A stretch of DNA of 64,000 nt from assembly GCF_964204645.1 (NCBI RefSeq), contig NC_134026.1, positions 6,820,001-6,884,000 of the forward strand, read 5' to 3'. Shown here one piece after another: positions 801-62,579 of this stretch. The notes under the pieces are model-generated. The model had not been told where the DNA came from. It did not search any database and saw nothing but the letters and a program-made list of their open reading frames with translations. A program made the translations under genes and the position numbers. The stretch is from Tubulanus polymorphus. Lineage: Eukaryota; Nemertea; Palaeonemertea; Tubulaniformes; Tubulanidae. Positions within the stretch are counted from its first letter, which is position 1. Every line of letters begins with the position of its first letter.

Positions 801-1305
801 ATATTTCGAGCGCATTTTGTCGTTCCCCACATATCCTAATGTTTGATATTTTTTGACGCAGTGCCAACTGCGCTCTCGTGTGCGGGTAACTCAGCGCTAT
901 TTGCAAGTTTCATTCGTCGTCAATGCGCATGCGTCATTATTCAAAAACGGATGATAGCGGCTAGTATATTGATTTCAGATTAGAAAAACACTGATTTATG
1001 ACATGAATATCACTTTCTCTATGATATGGGATTACTTAGATTATCAAAATCACAATTTTCCCCTTGCAAGACTTTTAATGCCGATGTAGATGTGTTAAGA
1101 ACAGAAAAATCTCTTTATATTCAAATAGATTTGACAAGGGCAATAAAAAGTCGCGAGTAAATGCTGCAGATATGGAGTAAATATGGTTGTATAATGCATA
1201 CGTGCTTGCCACAGCTCCCTTTGCTGAGCGCAGTGTTCGGCTCGTGTGCGGGGCCCTATATTCTGCTAAATGCGTGTACGCATCAAAGAATTTAATTGTA
1301 CAAGT

Positions 1306-1311
1306 TTTATT
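1306..1311 (-). promoter_or_regulatory. Candidate polyadenylation signal of GPCR 1
   Basis: TTTATT on the plus strand reads AATAAA on the minus strand, about 115 bases downstream of the stop of the GPCR gene at 1426. Position and sequence fit a polyadenylation signal. No transcript evidence is available. Confidence 0.4.
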
Positions 1312-1425
1312 TTTTTGGAGTTGTAGATGTTAACAAAAAATGTAATTTACTAAATGTCACTGTAACCAGTCCACAGCTGATACGGGATAAAGTTGTATGA
1401 AGTGAATGAAACTTGAAATCAAGAG

Positions 1426-2379
1426 TTATTTGGCTGAATTCCTACAGCAGATTTTCATACAGAAATATTCACGAATTTCTCGTCCCAGTAAAATATATAT
1501 GTAGAAATTTACCACAAAGTTACACATTAGGAATAGTGCGAAAATGTCATATAGAAATTCTCTCTGTTCAGGTAAGTTCGGTAACAATGAAGTAACAGTG
1601 GTTGGAAGTGTAAATATTGCAAATGCGAGTGAAACTGTTACGAGCATTATTGTCGTACGTTTTGATTTTGTAGTTTTCTGATCAGACGAAACCAGCCTTG
1701 AACTCCTGAATAACTGAACTATTATAACAGAATTTGATGTAATAATCAAAGTTAAGGGTATAAGGTGAAGGTGGATGTCAATTATGGTAAAAAATGTAAT
1801 TTGGTCAAATAATTCATAGTAACATCCCAAAAGCTGGTCGGTAAAATGTATCGACAAACCAGGTGTGAGATATATAAACAGTGCATTTACTGCAGTAATT
1901 ATCAATATAGTAAATCTAGCGAATCTTGGTGTACATATCAAACGAGATGTGAACGGAAAGAGCACAACTGCCGCACGTTCTAGATTTATAGCTACTATCA
2001 ACCACGAACTATTGCAGACAGTAAGCGCCGTCACGAATTCGTATATTATACAACTGAGCACTGAATTCATAATAAATATAGGACCATCTTTAACGCGCAA
2101 GAGAACAAACTGTAAGACAGGCATCAAAGTAGAATTGATACAGTACATAAAATCACAGACTGACAAAACGATAAGATAGTTAGCGTAAGATAAGCTGCGG
2201 AATCTGCGACTTATCATTATCAGGAAAGAAGCTACATTTCCGAAGGCTCCAAACAGGAACACGACAGACAGAATGATCAGTGACACAGTACGGTAGATTC
2301 CAGACTTGTTCACTACAGACATGATGACAATGTAACTGTTATAAGTTCGACCGATTTGAATCGGAGTAGAATTCATCAT
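1426..2379 (-). CDS. Class A (rhodopsin-like) GPCR, copy 1, intact
   Basis: An intronless 317-residue open frame with seven hydrophobic segments. Visible class A landmarks are GN in TM1 (FGNVASF), an Asp in TM2 (LSVCDF), one Cys before TM3 and one in the second extracellular loop (LGCYYELFD) that can form the usual disulfide, LERAAVV at the end of TM3 in place of DRY, FAIFTLP in TM6 in place of CWxP, and NFYIY in TM7 in place of NPxxY. The N-terminus has an N-glycosylation site (NST) and no signal peptide. It would be a plasma-membrane receptor. The NF..Y form of TM7 occurs in invertebrate peptide-receptor-like families, but the ligand is unknown. It differs from the copies at 27-31 kb (for example extra N-terminal Met, NSYIVIM) and is separated from them by the two CAP genes. 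The second of the two adjacent ATGs aligns with the starts of the paralogues. Confidence 0.88.
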   Translation of the reverse strand: MMNSTPIQIGRTYNSYIVIMSVVNKSGIYRTVSLIILSVVFLFGAFGNVASFLIMISRRFRSLSYANYLIVLSVCDFMYCINSTLMPVLQFVLLRVKDGPIFIMNSVLSCIIYEFVTALTVCNSSWLIVAINLERAAVVLFPFTSRLICTPRFARFTILIITAVNALFIYLTPGLSIHFTDQLLGCYYELFDQITFFTIIDIHLHLIPLTLIITSNSVIIVQLFRSSRLVSSDQKTTKSKRTTIMLVTVSLAFAIFTLPTTVTSLLPNLPEQREFLYDIFALFLMCNFVVNFYIYILLGREIREYFCMKICCRNSAK

Positions 2380-2720: not shown

Positions 2721-2975
2721 TCGATGATAAATAATATAATATCAAATTATATGATGACGGTTTGAATATATCGCTAATTGAAAATGAATTGACCCGCAAC
2801 CAGTCAAGCCCCGATACATTGTGACGTGTACCCATCCTCCTAGATATAATTATAAGATTCATCAAATTTATAATAGTTCTGAAATATATTACGTAGATTA
2901 CAAAATAAATGCCAAAATTCACAAATTGTAACTGTTATATTGAAACGCCAATATTGATGACGTAGTGCGCATTGA

Positions 2976-3681
<706 letters not shown>

Positions 3682-10700: not shown

Positions 10701-13492
10701 ATGAACTCGGAATACCGGAATGATCACTATGTTTACTCTCAGCCGTTCGGATGAACTTGCATATCCCGAACAATCCCGATGTAAAATCGTATTTTGCTAA
10801 TTTGATTTCATCATCTTGTTTTATAGAATCGTGTAAAGATCTAAGTGATAAATGTATTGAACTGAAAGATAAACAATGTTCCTGGGATTCGCAACTTTAT
10901 ACATTCATGTCTATAAACTGTAGGGTATCGTGTGGTTTGTGTGGTCAGTATCGTCACCTGCTCTACCCCAACTCCCTGCCCTCCTCACTCCTCACCTGCC
11001 CTACCCCAACTCCCTGCCCTCCTCACTCCTCACCTGCCCTACCCCAACTCCCTGCCCTCCTCACTCCTCACCTGCCCTATTTCAACTCCTTGCCCTCACA
11101 GACTCCTCATCTGCCTTCCCCGACTTCTCATCTGTCCCACTCCCTTCGCATGCCACCACCAACCCAACACCCCCTTCAAAATAATAACTAAATTTTAAGC
11201 TGTTATAGTTCATTCAAAATTGTTACAAGAACTCAATTCATAAATATCTTCGTCGATACGTCTAATCGTCGATTCACTTGACTTCCTGTAAACTATATGT
11301 TGTTGCTTTTAAAAAGGTAAAGTGAACGGTGAATTCGATTCTGTCAACGCTGACAAGATTAAAACCAATGTCCGCCTTATCAATAAAAGTAAGTGTAAAT
11401 GGAGACACGTTCTCATGACGGGTTCTCAATCTGGGTTTAATATGACTCAGTTAACGTATTGAAGATGAACTGAGTTTACTTCTGAGCTGAATCTCAATCA
11501 CTTATAACCGGGTTACGGGTGTTGGGAAATATGGAATTGGGTCCTAAACTGCAGATCTGGGTCCTAAACTGTGGAACGGGGTCTGAGTCCTGCTGTGTAT
11601 ACAATATTTTGAGCCTGATTTTATGAATTTGTGTTTCAGCTGGAGATTTTGATTTTGCGGAAGCCATTAAGAACGCTAAGGGTAGGTGAACTAGACGTTG
11701 AATTAAGATAACAACCAAATCACTAGACTAAGTTAAGATGTTTGAAGTTTAAAGCTTACGCTCATTCCTGATTGTCACCTCTTTCATGTTATATTCATAT
11801 TCAGATGAATGCATTGATAAGTTTCCTGGTAGTTTCTGTTCTCGTTGGACCGAACGTGGACTGTGTAAAAGTGCCTCGATATTCATGGACTTCCATTGTT
11901 CTAAGTCGTGTAAACGATGTAAACTGATGCGCGAACCTTCTGTCGTCAATTACGGTAAGAGAGAGATTAAAGTGCGCGTTAGAACTGGTTTCGTAATCCA
12001 TAATTATTAAAGGTGAAGATTTCTAACCACGTGATTTCATGAAATATAACACTTTATCTCAGTCACGAATCGTGATGGGTTAACCAACGCCAGTTACTGT
12101 GTTATGTCTCCCAGAATTCTAACGATCAAGGCCTGCCACATTGAAGACAAAATTCACAGTGATGAAGATAATGGCTTTTAGATGGCTCATCACATTGAAA
12201 CGTCATTATTCTCTTAGTTTTGAAAATGGCCCATAGAATTGAGTCTGAACGTCAAAAACACCCTTAGTTTTGAAAATGACTAGAATAGTCAAAACATCAC
12301 TACTCTCTTAGCATTTGAAAATGGCTCTGAAATTTACACAGAATGAATAATATTACCACGATAAAACTCTGCCCATCGATGATATTGATTGAACTTATTG
12401 TTTAACCATTTCCTAAAGGTGAATGCAAGAATAAACATGATAACGATAGACAGTGTGATGAATGGGCTTACTACGGACATTGTGATAAGAGTCCAACATG
12501 GATGAGAATATTCTGTTCCAGATCGTGTAATTCATGTCAAAGTTAGTAGAATTTAACTATCAATTCTCTGGGATATCAAACCAGGTCTTAACAATCGACC
12601 GGTTATCAAACAACTATCTGAGATATCCTACACACTTATCCGAGATATCAAACCAATTATGTGAGATATGAACCGTTCTCTGAGATATTATGATTTGATA
12701 TCATGTCGTGAAAATTTGGTTCATAATAGCGCAAGTTTTATTCATTATCGTAGAACTTGGGAAATTATGGATAGATTTTATTTTAATCTGAGTAGATATC
12801 CGAAAATTGCAAAATCTCAGTTTCTATTGCACTTGTTGTCTTACTGTCGCATTAGTGGATCCACAGCGGGGAAACCTCGATTGCCACAGTTGACTGTTAA
12901 GTCTTTGGTCCAGTTCCGCAGTTCCGAGTTAACATTTGACTCTGAGTTAACTTATTGAAAATATACTATGTTAAACTCACAGTTAACTCTAACTCACAAC
13001 TGTGGAAGTGGGTCCTGATTATTTTATTCTGGAATTTCAGCTTACAAAGTCGGATCGTGTGACAACCAGTACGGTAACGATGCATATTGTAACGCATGGG
13101 CGCTGCGGGGAGACTGCGACACTAGTGAATACTGGATGAAAACATTCTGTGCTTCAGCTTGCGATAGCTGCAGCTGGAAAAAACCACAAGCAACAACAAG
13201 ACCCGCCGCTGCGGTGACATCTGGGCAAAATAGGGGAGGCTCCGAAAAAGCTACTTCACTCGAAAGCGCTGACATTATGTCGATGAAGGAGCTCAAAGCG
13301 GAAGTTGGAAATGAAGTCGACGTCGCTGAAGACAAAAAAGGAAATGACATTGCTATTGACACCGGGGATGAAACGGAAAAACAGGAACCGGAAGCTCTTA
13401 CGAGCGAAAATCAAGAGAAGGCATTTGTACCGACGATAGAAGAAAAAACAAGAGATTCGAATAAAAATGTTGATAAAATCAAATCTTCGTAA
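4739..13492 (+). CDS. Gene A: secreted CAP-EGF-ShKT x4 protein (13 exons)
   Basis: Exons: 4739-4948, 8012-8151, 8688-8784, 9168-9259, 9767-9873, 10122-10160, 10549-10644, 10827-10943, 11317-11388, 11640-11681, 11805-11954, 12419-12541, 13041-13492. All introns are GT-AG and the frame runs through to 578 residues. A signal peptide (about 1-27) precedes a CAP/SCP domain (about 35-185) with LDLHN (His46), EWDDRL, WFEE, GCGW and CNYAPG. Then come a Cys-rich hinge (CSECP), an EGF-like module (229-260), and ShKT modules at about 261-299, 338-376, 389-427 and 430-472, each with six Cys. The last about 105 residues are Glu/Lys/Asp-rich and disordered in character. The CAP motif GHYTQ is replaced by NQYLQ and GEN by GQN, so the canonical metal-binding tetrad looks incomplete. 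The role is unknown: CAP proteins are extracellular and occur in defence, reproduction and secretions. The start is set by the signal peptide. Intron 1 (3 kb) and intron 8 carry minisatellites. The nearest relative is gene B downstream. Confidence 0.88.
5753..5985. repeat. 32-bp minisatellite in intron 1 of gene A
   Basis: About seven imperfect units of roughly 32 bases, each containing GGGTCTCTGGTTCGCTGGGA followed by CCCTGGAACAC, run head to tail. It lies entirely within an intron, so it does not affect the protein. Confidence 0.85.
6000..6960. other. Intronic DNA of gene A, no feature
   Basis: The open frames here are short, lack domain character and sit inside intron 1. No exon matching gene B is missing from this stretch, so it is treated as plain intron. 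Confidence 0.5.
6961..7140. mobile_element. Dispersed 'GACCAGTCT' foldback repeat, copy 1
   Basis: It begins TGGCCAGGTTGCACAATGAG and carries internal GACCAGTCTT and TTGACCGATGG-type units, ending near an inverted GGCCAACTGTGTAAC. It is the same family as the clear copy at 15672-15816. This copy is degenerate and intronic. Confidence 0.5.
8361..8628. mobile_element. Dispersed 'GACCAGTCT' foldback repeat, copy 2
   Basis: It opens CAGGGCCGAGTTGCACATTT and closes with GCTATGCAACTAGCCCC, an inverted counterpart. Between the ends, four to five tandem units of about 50 bases carry AGACTGGTCTTAAGTTGTTA and a segment like GGCTATAGAACCAAAATGAG. It lies inside intron 2 of gene A. Confidence 0.7.
9595..9735. 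mobile_element. Dispersed 'AACTGTGGAACTGGGTCC' repeat, copy 1
   Basis: It contains GGTTCCACAGTC, CAGTTAACTCATTGAAAAT and several ACTGAGTCCAGA units, all typical of a dispersed family seen at least seven times in the window. It is intronic and lies immediately before exon 5 of gene A. Confidence 0.55.
10958..11135. repeat. 38-bp minisatellite in intron 8 of gene A
   Basis: Three to four C-rich units of 38 bases (CCCCAACTCCCTGCCCTCCT plus CACTCCTCACCTGCCCTA) start right after the donor of the first ShKT exon. Open frames through it are proline-rich artefacts of reading into the intron. Confidence 0.85.
12907..13015. mobile_element. Foldback repeat with GGTCCAGTTCC ends, copy 2
   Basis: It opens GGTCCAGTTCCGCAGTTC and closes AACTGTGGAAGTGGGTCC, which are inverted relative to each other. 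Between them are GAGTTAAC and ACTCACAGTTAACTC. This is the tidiest copy of a family that seems to be a small non-autonomous element. It lies in the last intron of gene A, just before the ShKT4 exon. Confidence 0.65.
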
Positions 13493-23414: not shown

Positions 23415-23869
23415 ACCAATTCCCGATAGAGGTCGTACATGTGACGTCATAGTTTGTTTTCCAACCGGGGTTGAAGATTACAAAATCGAAAAGGGGATTT
23501 ACAAATTTCGGGGATTTGTCAGATTGTAAATCGCTACCATTGTGTTTTCCAAGCAATATGGCGGTAACATTGATGAAAGAACATGTATTGCTATACGACC
23601 CCTATACTGCTGCGTCTCACACAGCAAGGTGCCTTGTGTATCTTGATAATCATGGACAGATTCATGTTGAGTTTAAACTGTAATCGGTTTAAAATGCAAT
23701 TAATTGTGTCCATTAAAAATTACTTGTGAGACATTGTCAATTGCTTTTTCTTTATAAATTCGTTCTAACGTTTTAAGGAATCGGTAAAAAAGGGATATTT
23801 TAGGACAAAATGGCCATTTTACCCAGTAGCTGTCATCTTACACAAATCAGAAATTTTTCGATTTGGACA

Positions 23870-23882
23870 AATAAACAATAAA
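23870..23882 (+). promoter_or_regulatory. Possible polyadenylation signals of gene B
   Basis: Two AATAAA hexamers (23870-23875 and 23877-23882) lie about 460 bases after the gene B stop. They also sit in the duplicated 3' flank of a minus-strand GPCR copy, so their assignment is uncertain. Confidence 0.25.
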
Positions 23883-23929
23883 ATATTATTTACTGAATGT
23901 AACTGGCCCACAGTTAATACGGGTTAAAG

Positions 23930-24540
23930 TTGTATGAAGTGAATCAAACCATCAAGAAATCAATGGTTATTTGACAGTATTTCGGCAGCGGATTTTCACA
24001 CAGAAATATGGACGGAAGTGTAAATATTGCAAATGCGAGAGAAACTGTTACAAGCATAATTGTTGTACGTTTCGATTTTGTAGTTTTCTTATCAGACGAA
24101 ACCATTTTTGAACCCCTGAATAACTGAAATAACATAATTTGATATAATGATCAACGTTAGGTATAACGATAATGCTATGATTATGGTAGAAAATGTTCCT
24201 TGGTGATTATAGTAATATCCGAAATATTGGTCGGTAAAATGGTGTACCTACAAGTCATTTCAGGTGAGAAATAAACAAACAGTGAATTCACTGCAGTAAT
24301 TATGATTGTAGTGAATCTAGCAAATCTCAATGTACATATCAAACGAGATGTGATCGGGAAGAACACAACTTCTGCACGTTCTAGAGATATTGCTACTATC
24401 AACCACGTAATTGCAGCCAACGAGCACCATTATAATTTCACAACTGATCAGTGAATTAATGATGAATATAATTCTATGTCCATCTTTAACGTGCAAGAGA
24501 AAAAAACTGTTAAACAGGCATCAGTGTATAATTGATGCCA
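23930..24540 (-). pseudogene. GPCR copy 2, truncated pseudogene
   Basis: Minus-strand frames at 23944-24135 and 24181-24420 match TM3-TM6 of the intact receptors (SLERAEVVFFP, SDKKTTKSKRTTIMLVTVS), but frameshifts and stops break them. The N-terminus and TM1-TM2 are absent. Similarity stops at about 24535, in the TM2 region, and the next bases are the 3' flank of copy 3. A functional receptor is not possible. Confidence 0.85.
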
Positions 24541-24591
24541 AAACGTCGAAGTAAGTACAAAGTGAATGAAAATTGAAATCAATGTTTATTT

Positions 24592-25534
24592 GTCTGAACT
24601 ATTAGCGTGGATTTTCATACAGAAATATACACGAATTTCTCGTCCCAGTAAAAGATAAATGTAGAAATTCACCACATAGTTACACACATGAATTTGATGA
24701 AAAATGTCATAAAGAAATTCTTTCTGTTCCGGTGAGATTGGTAAATATGTAGTAACCGTGGATGGAAGTGTGATATTGCAAATGCAAGTGAAACTGTTAC
24801 AAGCATTATCGTTGTGCGTTTTGATTTTGTAGTTTCTGATCAGACGAAACCATTTTTGAACCTCTGAATAACTGAATTATTATCACCGAATTAGATGTTA
24901 TAATTGAAGTTAATGGTATGATAGTATGGTAGGTATCGATAATTGAGAAAAATGTCATTTGGTCAAATAAGTCATAGTAACATCCGAAAAACTGGTCGGT
25001 AAAATGTATCGACATAGCAGGTGTGAGATTTGTAAGCAGTACATTTACTGCAGTAATTATCAATATAACAAATCTAGCGAAACTCGGTGTACATATCAAA
25101 CGAGATGTGAACGGAAAGAGGACTACTGCCGCACGTTCTAGAGTTATAGCTATGATCAACCACGAACTATTGCTGACCGCGAGTATCATTACAGATCCAT
25201 GTATTTGACAACTGACCAGTGAATTCATGATGAATATAGGACCGTCTTTAACGTGCAAGAGAACAAACTGTAAAACAGGCAACAGCGTAAAATTGATGCA
25301 GAACGTGAAATCACTGAGAGACAAAACGATAAGATAGTTAGCGTAAGATAAACTGCGGAATCTGCGACTTATCATTATCAGGAAAGTGGCTGAATTTCCG
25401 AAGGCTCCAAAAAGGAACAAGATAGGCAAAATGACCAGTGACACTGTACGGTAGATTCCAGACTTGTTCACCACAGACATAAGAACCATGTAACTGCAAT
25501 AGGTTCGACCGATTTGCCGTCTAGTAGAATTCAT
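24592..25534 (-). pseudogene. GPCR copy 3, full-length but frameshifted
   Basis: The start and TM1-TM5 are open for 242 residues (24806-25534), with MNSTRRQIGRTY, FGNSATF, LSLSDF, LERAAVV and the two conserved Cys. After SSDQK one T is missing from the run seen as GTAGTTTTCTGA in the paralogues (here GTAGTTTCTGA), so the frame shifts before TM6. A second one-base loss occurs in TM6 (GTGTGATATTG instead of GTGTGAATATTG). The C-terminal region to a TAA at about 24592 is recognisable in other frames. It is either a young pseudogene or carries two sequencing errors. Confidence 0.8.
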
Positions 25535-25989
25535 GATTTACCGTTGAAGGTGTGGACTGACTTGTCCCAACGGACTGATGCTTAATCAAAAATCTGCGCA
25601 CACAGGGAAATTGTCTTGTTTATTGAAGCCAAGAATTTATTTATTGCATTGAAAAATCAATTCTCAGAAATCAAACACAGTTTACTAAGATTTGTGAAAG
25701 TTATTGTTGCATGAAATTCAAATGTAGCTGAAATCACATATCAATATTCGTTATACAAGAATTCACACGCAATGTAAATGGCGAAATTGTGCATACAGTA
25801 GAAATTTCTTACAGTAGTATACCAGAATAGGTTGGAAAATCTTTTCACTAATTCAGTACGTTCAGAATGGAGGTCAGAATCTTCCAGAAGTGAGGTCAGA
25901 TTGATATCACAATGAACTCCCACCAGAAGCAACGAGATCACACAGTCATATACGTAGTAGACTTATGCGATAATTATCAATCTGCAGCC

Positions 25990-26380
25990 TTTACCTCCTG
26001 AGACATTAAAACATTGCATACTGTAATCATCATTATACCAATTTGTCATCGTCCACACTTCATATTCAGAACTTAACCTGAGAAATTATGTTTGGAAATG
26101 AACTAGAAACGCCAGATACATTAGATAGGACAAAATAGTAGTCACACTCGTAAGCTCTCTTAGTATTTGACAGATAGCAGATTTTTCAATTTTTTTATAG
26201 ATGAATTAACAATAAATGTACAAATGTATAAATTTACTAAATTTCACCGTAACCATTACACAGTGAATACGGGCCAAAGTTGTATGAAGCGAATCACACT
26301 TGAAATCAATTCTTATTTGACTGAATTTCTACGGCGAAATTTCATATAGAAAATTTCACGAATTTCTCGTCCCAGTAAAA
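25990..26380. other. Inter-copy spacer in the GPCR array
   Basis: This is 5' flank of copy 3 passing into 3' flank of copy 4. At 26240-26330 the TACGGGCCAAAGTTGTATGA segment matches the 3' flanks at about 1380 and 23918. No gene is supported. Confidence 0.5.
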
Positions 26381-27045
26381 TATATGTAGAAATTAACCAC
26401 TAGTTACAAACAGGAAATTGATTGAAAATGCTATATAGAAATTCTCTTTGTTTCGGTGAAATTTGTAAAAACATATTGATAGTGGATGGAAGTGTAGATA
26501 TTGCAAATGCGAGTGAAACTGTTGAACTGTTGAACTGTTGAACTGCCTTATTGTTGTACGTTTTGACTTTGTAGTTTTATGATCAGACGAAACCATTTTC
26601 AAACCTCTCAATAACTGAATTATCTTAACAAGATTTGATGCAATAATCAAAGTTGATGTAATGGTGAACGTCAACAATGAAAAAAGAAATCTTTTTTGGT
26701 CAATTAATTGATACTAACGTCTAATGAACTAGTCGATCAAATGTATGGAAAAACCAAGCGTGAGATGCATAAACAGTGCGCATTTACTGCAGTTATTATC
26801 AATATAGTAAATCTAGCGAATCTCGGTGTACATATCAAACGAGATGTGAACGCGAAGAGCACAACTGCCGCACGTTCTAGAGATATTGCTACTGCTATCA
26901 ACCACGAAATATTGCCGGCTGCAAGTACCATTACAGATCCATGTATTTGACAACTGATCGATGAATTCAACAAGGTTATAGGATCAACTCTAATGTGCAA
27001 AAAACAAACTGTAAAACGGGCATCGTATAATTGATGCAGAAAGTG
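26381..27045 (-). pseudogene. GPCR copy 4, truncated pseudogene
   Basis: Open pieces at 26393-26677 and 26737-27000 match the receptor's TM3-TM6 (SLERAAVVLFAF, TSRLICTPRFARF, SDHKTTKSKRTT). They are disrupted by indels, including a small tandem GAACTGTT expansion near 26521-26543. Like copy 2, it lacks everything upstream of TM2 and ends at about 27045, directly against the 3' flank of the intact copy 5. Confidence 0.85.
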
Positions 27046-27082
27046 AAAGTTGTGTTAAGTGAATCGTACTTGAAATCAATCC

Positions 27083-28033
27083 TTATTTGACTGAATTTCT
27101 ACAGCGAATTTTTATACAAAAATATTCACGAATTTCTCGTCCCAGTAAAAGATATATGTAGAAATTAACAACAAAGTTGCAAACATGAACTTGATTGAAA
27201 ATGTTATAAAGAAGTTCTTTCTGTTCCGGTGAGATTGATAAATATGTAGTAATAGTGGATGGAAGTGTGAATATTGCAAATGCGAGTGAAACTGTTACAA
27301 GCATTATTGTTGTACGTTTTGATTTTGTAGTTTTCTGATCAGACGAAACAATTTTCGAACCTCTGAATAACTGAATTATTATAACAGAATTTGATGTTAT
27401 AATTAAGGTTAATGGTATGATAGTATGGTAAGTGTCGATAATTGAGAAAAATGTTATTTGGTCAAATAAATCATAGAAACATCCGAAAAACTGGTCGGTA
27501 AAATGTATCGACAAAGTTGGTGTAAGATAAAGAACCAGTGCATTCACTGCAGTAATTATCAATATAGCAAATCTAGCGAATCTCGGTGTACATATCAAAC
27601 GAGATGTGAACGGGAAGAGCACAACTGCTGCACGTTCTAGAGATAGCGCTATTATGAACCACGAACTACTACTGCCTGCAAGTATCATTACAAATTCGTA
27701 GATTTGACAACTGATCACTGAATTCATGATGAATATAGGACCGTCTTTTACGTGTAAGAGAACGAACTGTAAAACAGGCATCAGTGTATAATTGATGCAC
27801 ACCGTGAAATCACTGAGAGACAAAACGATAAGATAGTTAGCGTAAGATAAACTGCGGAATCTGCGACTTATCATTACCAGGAAAGTAGCTGAATTTCCGA
27901 AGACTCCTAACAGGAACACGATAGGCAAAATGACCAATAGCACATTACGGTAAATTCCAGACTTGTTCACCACAGACATGAGAACCATGTAACTGCAATA
28001 GGTACGACCGATTTTCATCTGAGTAGAATTCAT
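27083..28033 (-). CDS. Class A GPCR, copy 5, intact
   Basis: Intronless, 316 residues. Key positions: N-glycosylation sites at Asn2 and Asn23, GN of TM1 at 46-47, Asp75 in TM2, Cys109 and Cys185 for the extracellular disulfide, Glu133-Arg134-Ala135 replacing DRY, FAIFTLP at 252-258, and NFYIY at 290-294 replacing NPxxY. The short C-tail has CIKIRCRNS, with Cys residues that might be palmitoylated. The third intracellular loop is short and basic (KTTKSKR). It is expected at the plasma membrane, probably coupling to G proteins. The TM7 form suggests an invertebrate peptide-receptor relative, but the ligand is unknown. The start matches all the paralogues. Confidence 0.9.
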   Translation of the reverse strand: MNSTQMKIGRTYCSYMVLMSVVNKSGIYRNVLLVILPIVFLLGVFGNSATFLVMISRRFRSLSYANYLIVLSLSDFTVCINYTLMPVLQFVLLHVKDGPIFIMNSVISCQIYEFVMILAGSSSSWFIIALSLERAAVVLFPFTSRLICTPRFARFAILIITAVNALVLYLTPTLSIHFTDQFFGCFYDLFDQITFFSIIDTYHTIIPLTLIITSNSVIIIQLFRGSKIVSSDQKTTKSKRTTIMLVTVSLAFAIFTLPSTITTYLSISPEQKELLYNIFNQVHVCNFVVNFYIYLLLGREIREYFCIKIRCRNSVK

Positions 28034-28239
28034 GATTCACGATGATTTGCTGTTGAAGGCGTGGACTGACTTGTCTCGATTGACTGATGCCAATCGCTAA
28101 ATCTGTGCACACGTAATGTCTTATTTATTGAAGCCAAAAATTATTGATTGCATTAAATCAAGAATCAATTCTCAGAAATCTAACACAATGTACTCAGATT
28201 TTTTAAGTTTATTGTTGCGTTAAATAAAGTTTATTGTTG

Positions 28240-28690
28240 CGTAAAATATAAACGTCACTAAATGAAATTTCAATCTTTTACATCGCGGTCGCAGGGCAAT
28301 CACATCCGACCCGTGGCTCAATGTAGTTGGAAAAATATTTAGGTTACTAGAAATTCTGAATTCGAACCCAGTACACGCATGTTGATATTTTCCAATTTCA
28401 ATTCGATGAAAATGAATTTGAAGAAAACGAATAAATTAATTCTTTAGGCCATTCAACATTTATACAGTGTTCCTCATCACATTAGTTTCACAAAAGTGAA
28501 GAGGGACGCAGATTTTTTCATTCAGGTTAAAAAAACAACCTTGAAATAAAATATTTAAAGGATACTTGAAGAAGAGCATAAGGGGATCAGTTTTTTGAAT
28601 TCTTATTTAGGTAGAAAATGCAGCAAAGATGGCATGAGGGATCCAAGTTTTTACTTTTGGACAGTGGTTACCTAAATCACAGCATGCTAG
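28240..28690. other. Intergenic, nothing recognised
   Basis: No coding or RNA feature is seen between the 5' flank of GPCR copy 5 and the foldback element at 28698. Confidence 0.4.
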
Positions 28691-28697
28691 AGCATGG

Positions 28698-29002
28698 CAT
28701 GCTCCCCCGGCTGGGATTCGAACCTGACGGCATCGAGATCGAAGCAACACGCGCACCTTAGATGATGTCATTATCAGCCAAACAGAAATCCCGTTTGATT
28801 TTAGCCCGGGTTTTACCATTTATAGTTCTTCCGTGAAATCTACCTCAGTGATTGTACAACGAGCAATCTGATTGGTACCGCCAGTTTTCGCGCAGCAAAG
28901 CTGCGCATGTACCTGCGCACCCGGTCTACTGTGGCAGGGGTTCATGCCGTGGCTGAGTGTAGCGATACCATCAGGTTTGAATCCCCGCCGTGGGAAGATG
29001 GA
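28698..29002. mobile_element. Foldback element with tRNA-like GGGATTCGAACCTGA ends, copy 1
   Basis: It starts CCCGGCTGGGATTCGAACCT and ends with the inverted AGGTTTGAATCCCCGCCG. The interior includes CGCACCCGGTCTACTGTGGC and the CAATCTGATTGGTACC segment. A second copy in the opposite orientation is at 62220-62579. The terminal motif resembles a tRNA B box, but no complete tRNA can be folded. It is a probable non-autonomous DNA element. Confidence 0.65.
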
Positions 29003-29567
29003 TTATGGTAGCTTCAAACCCCGGTCCGCACAAATTCCAATCACCTGATTCATTGCCGTCAGAGCACATTTCATCTCTAAAAGCCCTTGCTTTTCCTTTT
29101 TCTCTCAAAGACTCGCTCCTCCCTTTTATATCGTTTACCGTTTAGTAACGTGTACGGGCCCTTTACCACACATGATTTGGTATCCACGGATTGTGACGCA
29201 TTCATACGTCACAGCCGACAGTATCTACGCACGTCACAATATTCTAAAAATACATTTTGCACAAAAAATAACTATTTATTGTTTTTTTTTTGTGTGACGC
29301 AAATATCAACGCAGCTACTCTGATGATAGCAACACTGTCCATGAACTCCAGCTTTCGTTCATTCCTGATTGCTATTGTTCAACCGCTGATAACTGAAAGT
29401 TCAATAATATATTTCCTGAAAGCACAATAGTATATTCGTTAAAAGCCCAACAATATCTTCCCTAAAAGCCCAAAACAAGCACGGTAAAAAGAAAAAATTA
29501 TATGAACAAAGATTCATCGACGAGTATTTTATTTCTTTTTTTTTTAAACCTAACATGAATTTTTACA

Positions 29568-30158
29568 CTAGCTCTTTAACCGGCAAGTATTTTTCGGCCT
29601 GTGAGTGATTTAGGACCTTACAAGGGGAAAACTGAATAACTCAGTAGATATGAGGGATAATTGCATGTATTTTATAAAAGCTCTTTTCATAAGCTTTCGA
29701 ATGGTACCAAGTTTGCGAACTTTGGTGGTCACCTTCAGGGTTTGACCCCAAGGTCACAGATCCCAAGGTCATCCAGATTTTAGGGCCATCCATAATCAAG
29801 CACTGTCATCAGATTCATCCCAATGCGAATTATCATCAGAATCTTTCATTTCTATGTCCAAAATATCAGCCAAACTCACTAGAGAACGTATTTAGTGCAT
29901 TGGCCATTACTACTAACGATGTTTTCAACTTCGGAAATCTGACCCACGTCACACTCGGTTTCTATACCCCCTACTATATGCCAAATGTATGATATATCGC
30001 TTTCCTGCTTTGTTAGACATTGTAGGCCGTCTGGTGTCGCCATCTGCTCACAGCAAAATGAGTCAGAATGCTTCACTGAAATCAATACTTGTCTATATCC
30101 ACTTTAGCTGGTCTATTAAAATCGGTCGCTAGCGACCGATTGCCGGTTAAAGGGCTAG
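29568..30158. mobile_element. 591-bp element with CTTTAACCGGCAA inverted ends
   Basis: CTAGCTCTTTAACCGGCAA on the left is inverted as TTGCCGGTTAAAGGGCTAG on the right. On the minus strand a 68-codon frame (29879-30085) is followed, after a frame change, by an acidic segment (KDSDDNSHWDESDD). That segment is reminiscent of transposase N-termini, for example piggyBac-like ones. It may be a decayed non-autonomous derivative. The family assignment is tentative. Confidence 0.5.
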
Positions 30159-30479
30159 CGGAAGCACTGATTTTATTCTTACCCAAATTTCGTTAGTGAT
30201 TTCTCCGATGCGCGCGGGGATGAGAAACACGGTTTTCTACCTCTGTGTATTTGCATGTGGTGTGTTGCGTACAAAAATTAGCAATTCAATGGCTTATGAC
30301 AAAGAATTTTGATGGTCCAAAGTTTGAATATTTTTGATTTGTTGATATTAACAACAAATGTATTTCACTGAATGCCACTGTAGCCAGTCCCAGTGATACT
30401 GGTCGTTCTTACTGTTCCCTTTTTGCAAATATACGTAATAAATGAAACAACAAACACGGTGAAATAACAATCGACGAAA

Positions 30480-30570
30480 AACTATGAAGCCATGAAACCA
30501 CTTAGTGCAAACTGTAAAACAGGCATCAGTGTTAATCTGATGCAGAACGTGCAAGTTAGTGCGAAGTGCG
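30480..30570 (-). pseudogene. GPCR relic fragment
   Basis: About 60-90 bases around ACTGTAAAACAGGCATCAGT match the TM2-TM3 part of the GPCR genes. It ends at the same place as copies 2 and 4, right beside the 3' flank of intact copy 6. The rest of this truncated copy is gone. Only its 3' flank at about 30355-30400 remains recognisable. Confidence 0.7.
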
Positions 30571-30605
30571 GCGAACTCAATTAATGGTTAAGAAATCAAT
30601 GGTTA

Positions 30606-31556
30606 TTACTTGACTGAATTTCTACATCGGATTTTCATACAGAAATATTCGCGAATTTCTCGTCCCAGTAAAAGATATATGTAGAAATTTGCCACGTAGT
30701 TACAGACATGAATTTCATTAAAAATGTTGTAAAGAAGTTCTTTCTGTTCTGGTGAGATTGGTAAATATGTAGTTATGGTCGATGGGAGTGTGAATATTGC
30801 AAATGCAAGTGAAACTGTTACAAGCATTATTGTTGTACGTTTTGATTTTGTAGTTTTCTGATCAGACGAAACCATTTTAGAACCTCTGAATAACTGAATT
30901 ATTATCCCCGAATTTGATGTTATAATTAAAGTTAATGGTATAAAAGTGTGGTAGGTGTCGATAATTGAGAAAAATGTTATTTGGTCGAATAAATTATAGT
31001 AACATCCGAAAAACTGATCCGTAAAATGAATCGATAAGACAGGTGTGAGAAGTAGAACCAGTGAATTCACTCCAGTAATTATCAATACAGCAAATCTAGC
31101 AAATCTCGGTGTACATATCAAACGAGATGTGAACGGGAAGAGCACTACTGCCGCACGTTCTAGAGATATTGCTACTATCAACCACGAACTATTGCTGATT
31201 GCAAGTATCATTACAAATTCGTAGATTTGACAACTGATCAGTGAATTCATGATGAATATAGGACCATATTTAACGTGCAAGAGAACAAACTGTAAAACAG
31301 GGATCAATGTATAATTGATAGAGAACGTGAAATCACAGAGAGACAAAACGATAAGATAGTTAGCGTAAGATAAACTGCGGAATCTACGACTTATCATTAT
31401 CAGGAAAGTAGCTGAATTTCCAAACGCTCCAAACATGAACAAGATAGGCAAAATGACCAGTAGCACAATACGGTAGATTCCAGACTTGTTCACCACAGAC
31501 ATAAGAACCATGTAACTACAATAGGTTCGACCGATTTGCATCTGAGTAGAATTCAT
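30606..31556 (-). CDS. Class A GPCR, copy 6, intact
   Basis: Intronless, 316 residues, very similar to copy 5. Landmarks: N-terminal NST and NKS glycosylation sites, FGNSATF in TM1, LSLCDF in TM2, SLERAAVV at the end of TM3, ECL2 Cys in FFGCYY, FAIFTLP in TM6, and NFYIYLLLGREIREYF in TM7/helix 8. Its main differences lie in the TM4-ECL2 region and the TM2-TM3 loop (VKYGP instead of VKDGP), where ligand contacts are expected. It is the last copy of the array and is preceded on its 3' side by a relic of a truncated copy. It is a probable orphan peptide-type receptor. Confidence 0.9.
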   Translation of the reverse strand: MNSTQMQIGRTYCSYMVLMSVVNKSGIYRIVLLVILPILFMFGAFGNSATFLIMISRRFRSLSYANYLIVLSLCDFTFSINYTLIPVLQFVLLHVKYGPIFIMNSLISCQIYEFVMILAISNSSWLIVAISLERAAVVLFPFTSRLICTPRFARFAVLIITGVNSLVLLLTPVLSIHFTDQFFGCYYNLFDQITFFSIIDTYHTFIPLTLIITSNSGIIIQLFRGSKMVSSDQKTTKSKRTTIMLVTVSLAFAIFTLPSTITTYLPISPEQKELLYNIFNEIHVCNYVANFYIYLLLGREIREYFCMKIRCRNSVK

Positions 31557-31959
31557 GATTCACGATGATTTTCTGTTGACTGACTTGTCTAACGGACTGA
31601 CGTTAAATTCAAAATCCATGCACACGGTCATAACGTCTTATTCATTGAAGCCAGAAATGCATTGAAAAAATCGATTCTAAAACAATTTAGTCATATTTTG
31701 TGAAAGTTTACTACTGCATGAAATATAAACGGAACTCAAATTAAATATCAATAATCGTCGTAAAAAATGTATTGTGATTTATGTGAAATATCGTATAGTA
31801 AAACATCTGAGCAGGTTTGAAAATGTTTGCGCAAGTTCAATTCGTTCTAGTGAGGCCAAAATGATATTACAACTAATTCCGGCCACATGTAAGCAGGCCA
31901 ATCGCATAGCCACGTTTGACTTATGTAATCATCAATCTCTATCCTGGAACGCCTGAGAC

Positions 31960-32390
31960 ATCCTTACTCACCATTTTACCCCTGCGATCGTTTAGACTTC
32001 ACCTGTATTCAGAACTTCGCCTGGGACATATTCAATTGAAAATGAACCACAAACACCGGACATTGGACATTTCATCAACACACTTTCAAAATCTTCCACA
32101 CTGTACTTTACGTTATAACGGGGGAAAATTATCTTTTTCCGCTTCCAGAAGTGCTTTTTGATAACTGTTAGCGAATGGCAATGAACTGTTTAATGAAGTG
32201 TTTAAATCACAGGAACTTACTCTTTTTCACAAATCGATCCTGAACATGTGGAAGAATTGCTCCAGAGTTTTATTCTATAACGGTTCTCACGAACCGGAAG
32301 TGGTTTAATGGCTTCATAGTTTTTCTTTGATTGTTATTTCTCCGTGTTTGTTATTTCTGTTATTATGTCGCAAGAGAGAACAGTTGTACC
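31960..32390. other. Intergenic, nothing recognised
   Basis: This is 5' flank of GPCR copy 6 fading into unique sequence. A short open frame on the plus strand (to 32161) overlaps the duplicated GPCR 5' flank and has no domain character. Confidence 0.4.
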
Positions 32391-33321: not shown

Positions 33322-36300
33322 ATGGCGTTGATGTATAGACTCATAGTGCATATTGCGGTCTTGCTGTCAGTTTCCTTGGTAGATTTTACGGATGGAATGG
33401 ATAGAAATTACAAACGAATTAAACAGCGAAATAAAATTTTGTGCGGACTTTTGAACGAAGTAACAGGAATTACTCAACTTCATTGCGCCAATTTGTGTTT
33501 CACATATTATCCAAATTGTACGGATTTTGTCTACAGTAACGATTTGACAGTCAAAAAGTGTTCTCTTTGTAACAGATACGGAACAACGAACGTAATTGAT
33601 ACAAGCGGAAGTAAAGCGTACGGTTTACCCATGGGTAGGTTATAGATTTAGACCCAGTTCCAAAGTCCAGTACCCGATTCTAGAGACATATTGACAGTTG
33701 GCTCTTTAAGTTGAAATGTTGGAAACTTATCGATTTAATTTATCCGGTAACTGTAGATGGGTCCAAGATCCTGGATTCAGTTCTACAGTTGACGGCCATT
33801 TGATGGCTAATGACGTGACGTCTCTGAATAAGAGAACATTACACATACGCGACTACATTATTAAGCCCGCCGCACACGGCACCGAAAAAACGTTTTTTCG
33901 GTGCCGTGTGCGTTGGGCTTTCGAGTTGTCTGCTGTTTGGAAATATTGTATAGATAACTGCTCAGGTTCTATAGCGTTTGAGCTTAGAAGTTTTATATTG
34001 TTATGAGCTCGATTAGAATTAATTTTTTTTTGCATTATGATATCAGTTCATATTGCTCAGTACTGATTATGGTCTTTTAGTATAAGAGGTTTGGCGGATT
34101 TTCACGTAATCTTTGATCTGTAGTCTGTGTAGCACTATCATGATGCTAATATCCTGAGTGTTGTATCAAAGGAGACCATGGTCACTACAGAATCGTCAAA
34201 AAACGTATTCGGGTCAAATAATACATAGTGTCAAAAATACACCCTCTTTATTGTAATGTTAGTAACTCGCAATACATGTATCTCGGTGATATTTTCCCAC
34301 ATGGATTCTACCCGTAGACTCGTAGCAGGAATTGAAAAAGTGGTGGGGCCATTTTTCGATTGTGGCACCCTCTATTAGAGAAAAATACTAAAAATAAGGA
34401 ATCTTGTGGGTTTCAAAGTAAAATTAATATTCGTCCCAATTTTCCACAAAATAGTACCAGTTAGAAGTGGTACGGCCATGTAGCCGTAGCGGCAGTACCG
34501 CTAACTTCAGCCTTGAGCTACGAAAATATCTCAAATAACTTTCATGTCCGACTGTGCGAGTCATCATTGGTTTCGAATTCCAAAGAAATAGAAATTTTAG
34601 GTTCCACTCCAATAAATTAGAAATCACCGTTTTGTGTTTGAATCCGGCTTAGTTAACTTTTATTGAATAGTCCTATAATGCCTGTTAATAGTAAAAGTAA
34701 TTTGTACATATTATGAGAATGTACCAGTCATATCAGGTTCGAAACCCCGACAATAAACGATTTTTTATTTCTATCTATAATTTCCAAAGATTTGCATATT
34801 AATGATACGTGCAAGACAGAAAATCCGTTATCGCTGAAGCTATATGTTTTGTTATTGTACATAACTTATCTAGGTTGTGTATAGGTAAGCTGCATCCAGT
34901 TCCACATGTTCCATAGGAATACGTCTAGTGAATCCCTGATATCCCGCCCTCCAATATACCGCCACCGCTACCGCCAGGTTTTCCCAATATACATCTCTAT
35001 ACAAATACATAGTAAAGCACCCATCCCCCTCCCGATATTCCGCCATACTCTCTATACCGCCAAAATCGTTCTGCACCAATGTGGGTTGTAAATCGGTGGT
35101 TGACTGTATATTCTAACCAAGAACTGTGAACCTATGGAAATGGCTGCCCAAATAGCAACGTTCAACAATGATTGTCGGCATGGACAGTTTGATTTTAGAG
35201 TTATAGCCTAATGCAGTGCATTTCTGATGGCTCAACTGAATTATTAATGACTTTTTGTTTTTTCAAAGTGACCTGGCCTGTAGGGCGTTACGGATTACCT
35301 AAATCGCTTGACGGATGTCCCAACACAGAAAGTGATGGTTTTCTTTGGGAAGAAGGTTGGAGTAAACAGTTTGCGCATCATGTTTACAATGATTTTAATC
35401 ACGCCAGCCCCGGGTTTCATTGGCCCCCGGGACATTTACAGTGGAATTGGTCCAATCAGACTTTCTGTATGAAGACCGTCGACAACGAAACCAACAGCGC
35501 CCCCGTGTGGCCGGATGGGAAATACTGTATCTTCAGATATGGCGGCTCTTGTCCAAGTACGTATTCCTTAAATGCAATGAGTATAAAAAGAAATTTTCTG
35601 TGACAGGTATAGAAGATCTGCTTTCGTATACAAGAATACAAGAATAAGAAATACAAGAATATAGTCTATTGAATAAATGTCCATGTCCATTGATAAACAT
35701 GTATAATAAAATATATTTGAGCGCCATGAATATTGGGGATAGCCAATGCACAATAGTTGCCGGTCATTTCAAAACAATTACCGATATATTCAAGTTCAAA
35801 ATAGCCAGTTCCATTGGATAAACAATGTTTACAAAAAGGGCACTTTTCGAAAATTTCTAGGGGGCAGCTACCCCCTGCCTCCCGTTGGATAGGCTGCATT
35901 ATGTGCTTTCTTTCTTAAAATGATTTAATATTGATTTTCGTAAACACAACATATGTGTACAATATAAAGAATAATTCGTTATTCGTTATTCGTTAATTAC
36001 ATGATATGGTATGATGACGAGGGCATCAAGGCGTCAACAAAATGTCAAGTTAGTTTTCCTGTTTTGTAGTTGGTCTAGAAATCGGAAGCATACATTTCGA
36101 CGATGACGACAGAGACAGTAAGGTAACTGGACAACACGGTGGTGTCGTACCCGATGAGGTTGAACAGCGCTGGTACAACGTGCGTCTCTACTACTGCTGT
36201 AAAAACACCGGTAATATCGTTCAGCCGATTGAATTACCCTACGATAAACCGTTCTATCTGTTCAGAAAGGACCCGACCGGCTGTCAGCAAGTGAGGGGTA

Positions 36301-36449
36301 TGACCGCTGCCGAGGAGTTCGTACATTTCAATACTCATGACGGAAATGATAATTCGGATTCGTCAACTGGCAGTATTCCGTATACATCTACTCCACCGGC
36401 TAGGATAACCGCCTGGGAGATTCATTACTGTTACTATTGTCCGATATAG
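33322..36449 (+). CDS. Apextrin-like secreted protein with C-terminal ApeC domain (3 exons)
   Basis: Exons 33322-33634, 35269-35556 and 36070-36449 join in frame across two phase-1 GT-AG introns to give 326 residues. Residues 1 to about 25 form a signal peptide. Residues about 38-85 hold a Cys-rich stretch (CGLL, HCANLCFTYYPNC, CSLCN) with a PAN/apple-like look. From about 105 to the end is an ApeC domain. Its features are TWPVGRYGLPKSLDGCP, the WEEGW block, FCMKT, YCIFRYGGSCP, IGSIHFDDDD, the paired-Cys LYYCCKN, and a closing WEIHYCYYC. ApeC proteins are invertebrate secreted or vesicular proteins. Some amphioxus members are known to bind bacterial peptidoglycan, so a pattern-recognition role is plausible here but inferred. 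The ATG is set by the signal peptide. The gene stands alone, with no paralogue in the window. Confidence 0.87.
33655..33790. mobile_element. Fragments of GGTCCAGTTCC repeat in apextrin intron 1
   Basis: Pieces such as GACCCAGTTCCAAAGTCC (about 33652) and GGATTCAGTTCTACAGTTGA (about 33773) match the dispersed family at 12907-13015. They are intronic and degenerate. Confidence 0.4.
33863..33920. mobile_element. 58-bp near-perfect palindrome in apextrin intron 1
   Basis: AAGCCCGCCGCACACGGCAC and its complement GTGCCGTGTGCGTTGGGCTT surround a central GAAAAAACGTTTTTTC. It shares the CCGCACACG core and TTAAG edge with the palindrome at 721-800, so the two probably belong to one foldback family. 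Confidence 0.65.
34010..35200. other. Intron 1 of the apextrin-like gene, no further feature
   Basis: Only short open frames without domains are present. Nothing is supported beyond the repeat pieces already listed. Confidence 0.45.
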
Positions 36450-60405: not shown

Positions 60406-60735
<330 letters not shown>

Positions 60736-62219: not shown

Positions 62220-62579
62220 GTGGCCCCATCCTCCCCGGGCAGGGATTCGAACCTGATGGCATCGCAACACTCTGCCACGGCACGAACTCTGCCACAGTAG
62301 ACCGGGTGCGCAGGTACATGCACAGCTTTGCCGCACAAAAACTGGTGGCACCAATCAGATTGTTCGTTGTATAATCACTGAGGGAAATTTGACGGAAGAA
62401 CCATGAATGGGAAAACCCGGGCTAAAATGAAACGGGATATCTGATTGGCTAATAATGACATCATGTAAGCTACGCATGTAGCTGCGCAATCGGTCTAGTG
62501 TGGCAGGGTTTCGTACCGTGGCAATCTCGATACCATCAGGTTCGAATCCCTTCCGGGGGAGGATGAGGCGGAAGCCACA
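62220..62579. mobile_element. Foldback element with tRNA-like GGGATTCGAACCTGA ends, copy 2
   Basis: About 360 bases. The left end has CTCCCCGGGCAGGGATTCGA and the right end the inverted TTCGAATCCCTTCCGGGGGA. The interior includes GTAGACCGGGTGCGCAGGTA and CAATCAGATTGTTCGTTGTA, matching the copy at 28698-29002 in the opposite orientation. Non-coding. Confidence 0.75.

Follow-up and report, generated by a model that had tools for sequence, protein, structure and literature searches.

A shared junction between truncated and full receptor gene copies in an array of the nemertean Tubulanus polymorphus

Partial gene duplicates occur often in the animal genomes that PMC3449122 reviews, and several described systems come close to the locus that is the subject of the present work: an array of intronless rhodopsin-type G protein-coupled receptor (GPCR) genes in a stretch of 64,000 nucleotides from Tubulanus polymorphus (RefSeq assembly GCF_964204645.1, contig NC_134026.1, positions 6,820,001 to 6,884,000 of the forward strand), hereafter the window. 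In tandem partial gene duplicates, a breakpoint inside the open reading frame (ORF) leaves a shorter paralogue beside the full one (PMC3449122). The same arrangement is found here, with a breakpoint inside coding sequence and a truncated copy adjoining a full copy in the same orientation, yet in this locus the pair itself appears to have been amplified as a unit to three copies. The human RCCX module (STK19-C4-CYP21-TNX; PMC8362596) likewise consists of a variable number of tandem segments with a truncated pseudogene (TNXA) in them, but it holds several unrelated genes, whereas one gene type and a unit of 2.3 kb are involved here. The Drosophila Sdic cluster (PMC3395120) resembles the array in that one fusion by duplication and deletion was followed by tandem copying of the compound unit; its product, however, is an expressed chimera of two different genes, whereas here the truncated part has decayed and the full gene is the working part. 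As to the receptors, the candidate chemoreceptors AcCRb of Aplysia (PMC2700072) are also intronless rhodopsin-like GPCRs, of 319-364 amino acids, some of them clustered and with pseudogenes in the survey; they are likened here by description, and membership is not claimed.

The locus is an instance of ordinary gene-family evolution, a new one, which works like these known systems and leaves the general view of how such families evolve unchanged. It brings together, within a small locus, two breakpoints, the decay of partners that were presumably born dead and the constraint on working partners, and its truncated copies offer an internal neutral clock by which a burst of the receptor family could be dated.

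One junction in three receptor gene pairs

The window contains four full-length copies (A, B, C and D) of the receptor gene, all on the minus strand. B, C and D each have one 5'-truncated copy (tB, tC and tD) directly downstream in the sense of the gene and in the same orientation. The truncated copies begin at about codon 76 in all three cases, in the region of the second transmembrane helix (TM2), and lack codons 1-75 and the promoter side. Insertions and deletions (indels) and stops are counted with copy A as the frame reference.

1284..1425, minus strand: uninterrupted long 3' flank of copy A, matching the outer flanks of tB, tC and tD
1426..2376, minus strand: full GPCR copy A, intact and open throughout, 316 amino acids, Pfam 7tm_1 E=2.6e-13
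23937..24549, minus strand: truncated copy tB, 10 indels, of which 7 are not multiples of 3, and 1 in-frame stop
24549..24550, no strand: junction 1 of unit 1 (TM2 to 3' flank), from junction scoring and three-way alignment
24586..25534, minus strand: full-length copy B, two single-base deletions
26287..27049, minus strand: truncated copy tC, 9 indels, of which 7 are not multiples of 3, and 2 in-frame stops
27049..27050, no strand: junction 1 of unit 2, from junction scoring and three-way alignment
27083..28033, minus strand: full GPCR copy C, intact, without frameshift or stop, 316 amino acids, 7tm_1 E=1.5e-15
30508..30554, minus strand: tD stub, 47 bases, ending at the common junction
30554..30555, no strand: junction 1 of unit 3, in a rearranged stretch, position less certain
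30606..31556, minus strand: full GPCR copy D, intact, without frameshift or stop, 316 amino acids, 7tm_1 E=4.5e-14

At each junction the TM2 coding sequence of the truncated copy, which begins just after the position of an aspartate that we take to be the conserved one of TM2, meets the 3' flank of the neighbouring full copy, at a distance from its stop of 37 bp for B, 34 bp for C and 52 bp for D. Homology runs through the fusion in all three pairs of the B, C and D units (1.1-1.5 kb, 84-89% identity), the self-BLASTN alignments being unbroken across the junction: 24277-25717 against 26771-28225 (1475 bp, 84.5%), 24504-25751 against 30509-31758 (1275 bp, 85.0%) and 27005-28056 against 30508-31579 (1072 bp, 88.7%). 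The fusion point itself shows single-base indels and some substitutions in the three-way alignment. When the split position is scored against hand-made parental consensus strings, the best split of junction C falls inside an AAA common to both parents; at junction B the AAA split scores at most 0.5 below the best, which lies a few bases on; and at junction D, because the stretch is rearranged, the best fit is about 12 bases off, with a 13-base insertion to its right. The unbroken alignments and the nearly coincident breakpoints together require one shared junction, and that it had a single origin can be regarded as almost certain. In copy A the same 3' flank continues without interruption. Processed (retroposed) pseudogenes were also considered as the source of the truncated copies, but these keep the long 3' flank of the source gene in register, which argues for an event at the level of DNA.

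A preliminary description had placed a recurring breakpoint at about 24535, 27045 and 30560, and this breakpoint is real, lying at about 24549, 27049 and 30554 and coinciding within a few bases for B and C. The motif TGATGCAGAACGTGAAA, said to lie near each breakpoint, has one exact occurrence, at 25294; this is within full copy B, away from the junctions. The 3' flank string TTGAAATCAA occurs at two of the junctions, those of B (24573) and C (27070), but not at that of D. The copies were said to stop in TM2; the breakpoint is there, but it is the start that is missing, because the genes lie on the minus strand. Three truncated copies were counted, which is correct for tB and tC, the third being a 47-base stub with outer flank only, and of the partners taken as full, C and D are intact and B carries its two deletions. 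The uninterrupted flank reported for copy A does run on, at 1284-1425.

The junction is part of a larger repeated unit, the same internal junction being present in each of the three units:

23801..26125, minus strand: compound unit 1 (long 3' flank, tB, junction, B and 5' flank), 2325 bp
26125..26126, no strand: unit-to-unit breakpoint (junction 2), where two homologies abut
26126..28226, minus strand: compound unit 2 (tC and C), its right end replaced by about 2 kb of other sequence
30300..32067, minus strand: compound unit 3 (tD remnant and D)

In the spacer between B and tC, homology to the right flank of D extends up to 26125 and homology to the left flank of tB starts at 26126. As judged from these two homologies, this point is the apparent seam left by copying of the whole pair of truncated and full genes. 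The unit is far smaller than the segments of RCCX. The stretch 46020-46211 matches the outer 5' flank of units 1 and 3 in inverted and partly tandem form, and the unit edge lies inside or at the border of a repeat of this type.

Decay of truncated copies and constraint on full copies

The truncated partners had been described as decayed to different degrees, and they do differ: tB and tC in their indels and stops, no indel being common to both in place and length in the alignment of the copies, and tD in the loss of its middle. What remains of tD is the 47-base stub and the outer flank at 30300-30402, with 105 bases (30403-30507) in place of the middle, most of which are accounted for by one feature:

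30411..30503, no strand: inverted copy of 32298-32384 in the tD gap, local score 118 (582 control comparisons, highest score 44)

Differences between tB and tC are spread nearly evenly over the codon positions (45:35:44 in 176 codons), and those between C and D unevenly (16:10:48 in 241 codons), with a ratio of nonsynonymous to synonymous divergence (dN/dS) of 0.18 for the latter pair. By these codon patterns tB and tC evolve as neutral sequence, and C and D are under constraint. The raw divergence between tB and tC, 138 of 576 columns or 24.0%, resembles that at synonymous sites of this region among the full copies (B-C, B-D and C-D; 24-27%, sd/S), as is expected if both halves were copied together.

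The truncated copy as a 3' untranslated region of its partner was also considered; the case is weak and is not relied on, a displaced poly(A) signal not being traceable in a scan limited to AATAAA and ATTAAA. AATAAA lies 117 nt beyond the stop in copy A and overlaps the stop in B; neither signal occurs in C over 25900-27090, the stretch scanned, and the only one of D is 431 nt away.

Origin of the array

The account that we consider the most probable, with fair confidence, is one joining event, a partial tandem duplication, followed by amplification of the compound unit. A single non-homologous joining would have linked coding sequence of TM2 to the 3' flank of the same gene, or of one almost identical to it, about 37 bp beyond the stop, most likely by a partial tandem duplication (probably not a deletion) of about 0.76 kb, perhaps closed at the 3-base AAA microhomology. 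The product would be a promoterless copy without the first 75 codons, directly downstream of a whole gene. The pair of truncated and full copies (about 2.3 kb, spanning the whole working gene) would then have been tandemly duplicated at 26125/26126 to give three units, in which the truncated copies, presumably dead on arrival, merely ride along. We infer the order of these events relative to copy A, as well as a later exchange among the copies. The layout of copy A is consistent with the ancestral arrangement, and such a layout could also be restored if a truncated copy recombined with its partner.

Two clusters of shared sites bear on such an exchange. Of the 17 sites shared by B, C and D, 9 fall in a 55-column stretch near TM5 (0 of 20000 permutations); this cluster, at 1741-1789 in the coordinates of A, alters several residues, and it could be due to selection on ligand binding or represent a conversion tract. 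The other cluster links B with tC:

25187..25215 (copy B), minus strand: 29-base tract identical to tC 26929-26957, holding all four states exclusive to B and tC

The clustering of the B-tC sites was matched in 10 of 20000 permutations (pairs with at least 4 sites), in a test run after the cluster had been noticed, and a GENECONV-like run test for the pair gave p=0.0155, which is not significant after correction for 15 pairs. The tract seems to be one visible exchange, in either direction. Some exchange among the copies, or a separate ancestry of the two halves, is likely on these site patterns. Three residues of B are changed at the site of the tract (YEF to HGS), and the truncated copies might conceivably be retained as donors, which drift, pass on conversion tracts and diversify TM3-TM7, the uncovered TM1-TM2 part staying more conserved. 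This we hold to be very unlikely: copy B is itself frameshifted, and the lower synonymous divergence of TM1-2 relative to the rest is not significant in three of four pairs (Fisher p 0.04, 0.13, 0.14 and 0.34; four of the six pairs tested), which counts against a donor role.

Unrooted trees were built from A, B, C, D, tB and tC, with tD left out because only 47 bases of it remain. By maximum likelihood on 760 columns, the sole well supported split separates B, C and D from A, tB and tC (98.3/99 and 98.9/98 in two runs). In the approximately unbiased (AU) test on the full alignment, no tree survives among the 15 that pair tB with B or the 15 that pair tC with C, while 3 of the 15 with tB and tC as sisters survive, and 1 of the 96 without the B, C, D group. 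The earlier proposal of one junction followed by amplification of the compound unit is thus upheld by the shared junction, the seam at 26125/26126 and this AU rejection; the tree check of neighbour pairing holds on the full alignment, but weakens without the gap columns or the TM5 stretch.

Several results weigh against a duplication followed by amplification. Junction 2 is visible once, at one of the two seams (B to tC), because about 2 kb of other sequence has taken the place of the seam between C and tD and of the right end of unit 2. On gap-free columns, which were also used for the strict partitions and the six-copy distance table (576 columns), the surviving trees number 0 of 15 for tB with B, 4 of 15 for tC with C, 7 of 15 for tB and tC as sisters and 17 of 96 without the B, C, D group. 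Without the TM5 stretch, the support of the split is 92.2/84 and the corresponding numbers are 5, 11 and 8 of 15 and 51 of 96; with the B-tC tract also removed, 2 of 15 trees survive for tB with B and 9 of 15 for tC with C. The tree evidence is therefore fragile, and the junction, not the tree, is the main evidence. Furthermore, no substitution is exclusive to tB and tC (0 strict sites, 0 pair sites), and the 17 sites common to B, C and D are not mirrored in tB and tC, whereas, had amplification simply come some time after the junction, changes in common would be expected on either side of it. In the flanks, whose alignments are short and gappy, copy A is no farther from the truncated copies than these are from one another in the long outer flank (Jukes-Cantor distances of 0.26-0.41 versus 0.44-0.59), and it lies outside B, C and D in the proximal 5' flank (0.51-0.76 versus 0.26-0.29); the longer 5' flank of A, B and D gives a weak contrast (0.46-0.52 versus 0.40).

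At fourfold sites, of which each pair has 71 to 85, divergence among the copies is 18-31% without a clear hierarchy; the copies therefore radiated at nearly one time. Approximate Jukes-Cantor simulations, with branch lengths set by hand near the values of the gap-free tree (A 0.090 versus 0.076 fitted), give about 2.6 sites exclusive to tB and tC by chance when there is no shared branch, with a probability of zero such sites of 0.07-0.08. With a shared branch of 0.003 (terminal branches 0.14-0.15) this probability is 0.03-0.04, so that a shared truncated-copy branch of at least 0.003 is rejected. The lack of such substitutions means that amplification followed the junction almost at once. As read from these alignments, either the amplification would have been immediate, with later exchange among B, C and D, or the two halves would have separate ancestries.

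Separate ancestry would follow from a deletion fusion, in which two neighbouring full genes that had already diverged, the left one A-like and the right one the ancestor of B, C and D, were joined when a deletion took the 5' part from the left gene and the outer 3' flank from the right one; the product of the fusion would then have been amplified. This possibility, which we regard as unlikely but the most serious of the alternatives, would account for the sole well supported split (98.3/99), for the 17 changes common to B, C and D with none to tB and tC alone, and for the position of A, which behaves as an outgroup on the full side (proximal 5' flank) and not on the truncated side. The split, however, rests largely on the 55-column stretch with 9 of the 17 sites, without which 51 of the 96 trees lacking it are not rejected. 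The mean distances of the truncated copies to A and to B, C and D are equal (about 0.19), and the flank alignments have the shortcomings already described, the longer 5' flank showing little contrast. A single replication-based rearrangement with template switching, which made the junction and the extra units together, would agree with the lack of a detectable interval between the two and with the short AAA shared at junction 1, but two quick ordinary steps would look the same as one such event, chance alone often yields a microhomology of 3 bases and the AAA is not resolved at junction D; such an event is accordingly judged improbable.

Two further alternatives deny the copying of whole units. 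The junction might have arisen once and spread by gene conversion among tandem genes that already existed, as the exchange suggested by the 29-base B-tC tract might hint, but the seam at 26125/26126 and the homologous outer flanks on both sides indicate whole-unit copying, and spread by conversion is highly improbable. Three independent truncations at one fragile site are scarcely credible: trees made without the TM5 stretch do not fully exclude a pairing of each truncated copy with its neighbour, yet the breakpoints agree to within a few bases on either side of the junction (about 12 at the most, in D) and homology continues through all three pairs, and this explanation is rejected as contradicted by the junction alignment.

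Receptor copies and other features of the window

The assignment to the rhodopsin-type GPCRs rests on Pfam 7tm_1, whose curated cut-off of 30.5 bits is exceeded by A (50.5), C (57.8), D (53) and the open fragment of B (36.3). The best sequence matches of copy D among solved structures are adrenergic, galanin and leukotriene receptors (E 3e-6 to 7e-6). An AlphaFold model had a mean predicted local distance difference test (pLDDT) score of 32.7, too low for use; in a simple hydropathy scan hydrophobic segments came up, but seven helices were not separated and TM2 was not picked out. Both single-base deletions of copy B sit in short homopolymers and could represent assembly errors. A tblastn search of the window with A and D as queries (E up to 1) gave no copies besides A-D and the truncated ones. 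No relatives were found among 1 pattern match in the viral contigs and 40 in the genome contigs, a negative that says little because the collections searched were viral and prokaryotic.

Elsewhere in the window there is an (AC)n dinucleotide array of about 705 bp (2975-3679; 99% matches), with 327 uninterrupted AC units at 3025-3678, and a perfect (CAG)109 array at 60407-60733. An inverted pair of a 259 bp repeat (28743-29001 and 62226-62483; 86.9% identity) carries what we take to be a polymerase III B-box, and it is possibly a short interspersed element derived from a tRNA; in this connection, a search for tRNA genes with ARAGORN found none. Domains that would be in keeping with a marine invertebrate are also present: two ORFs, at 10724-11191 and 13019-13492, have ShK-like domains, the second below the Pfam cut-off, and two ORF segments at 35199-36449 correspond to the two halves of an apextrin C-terminal (ApeC) domain.

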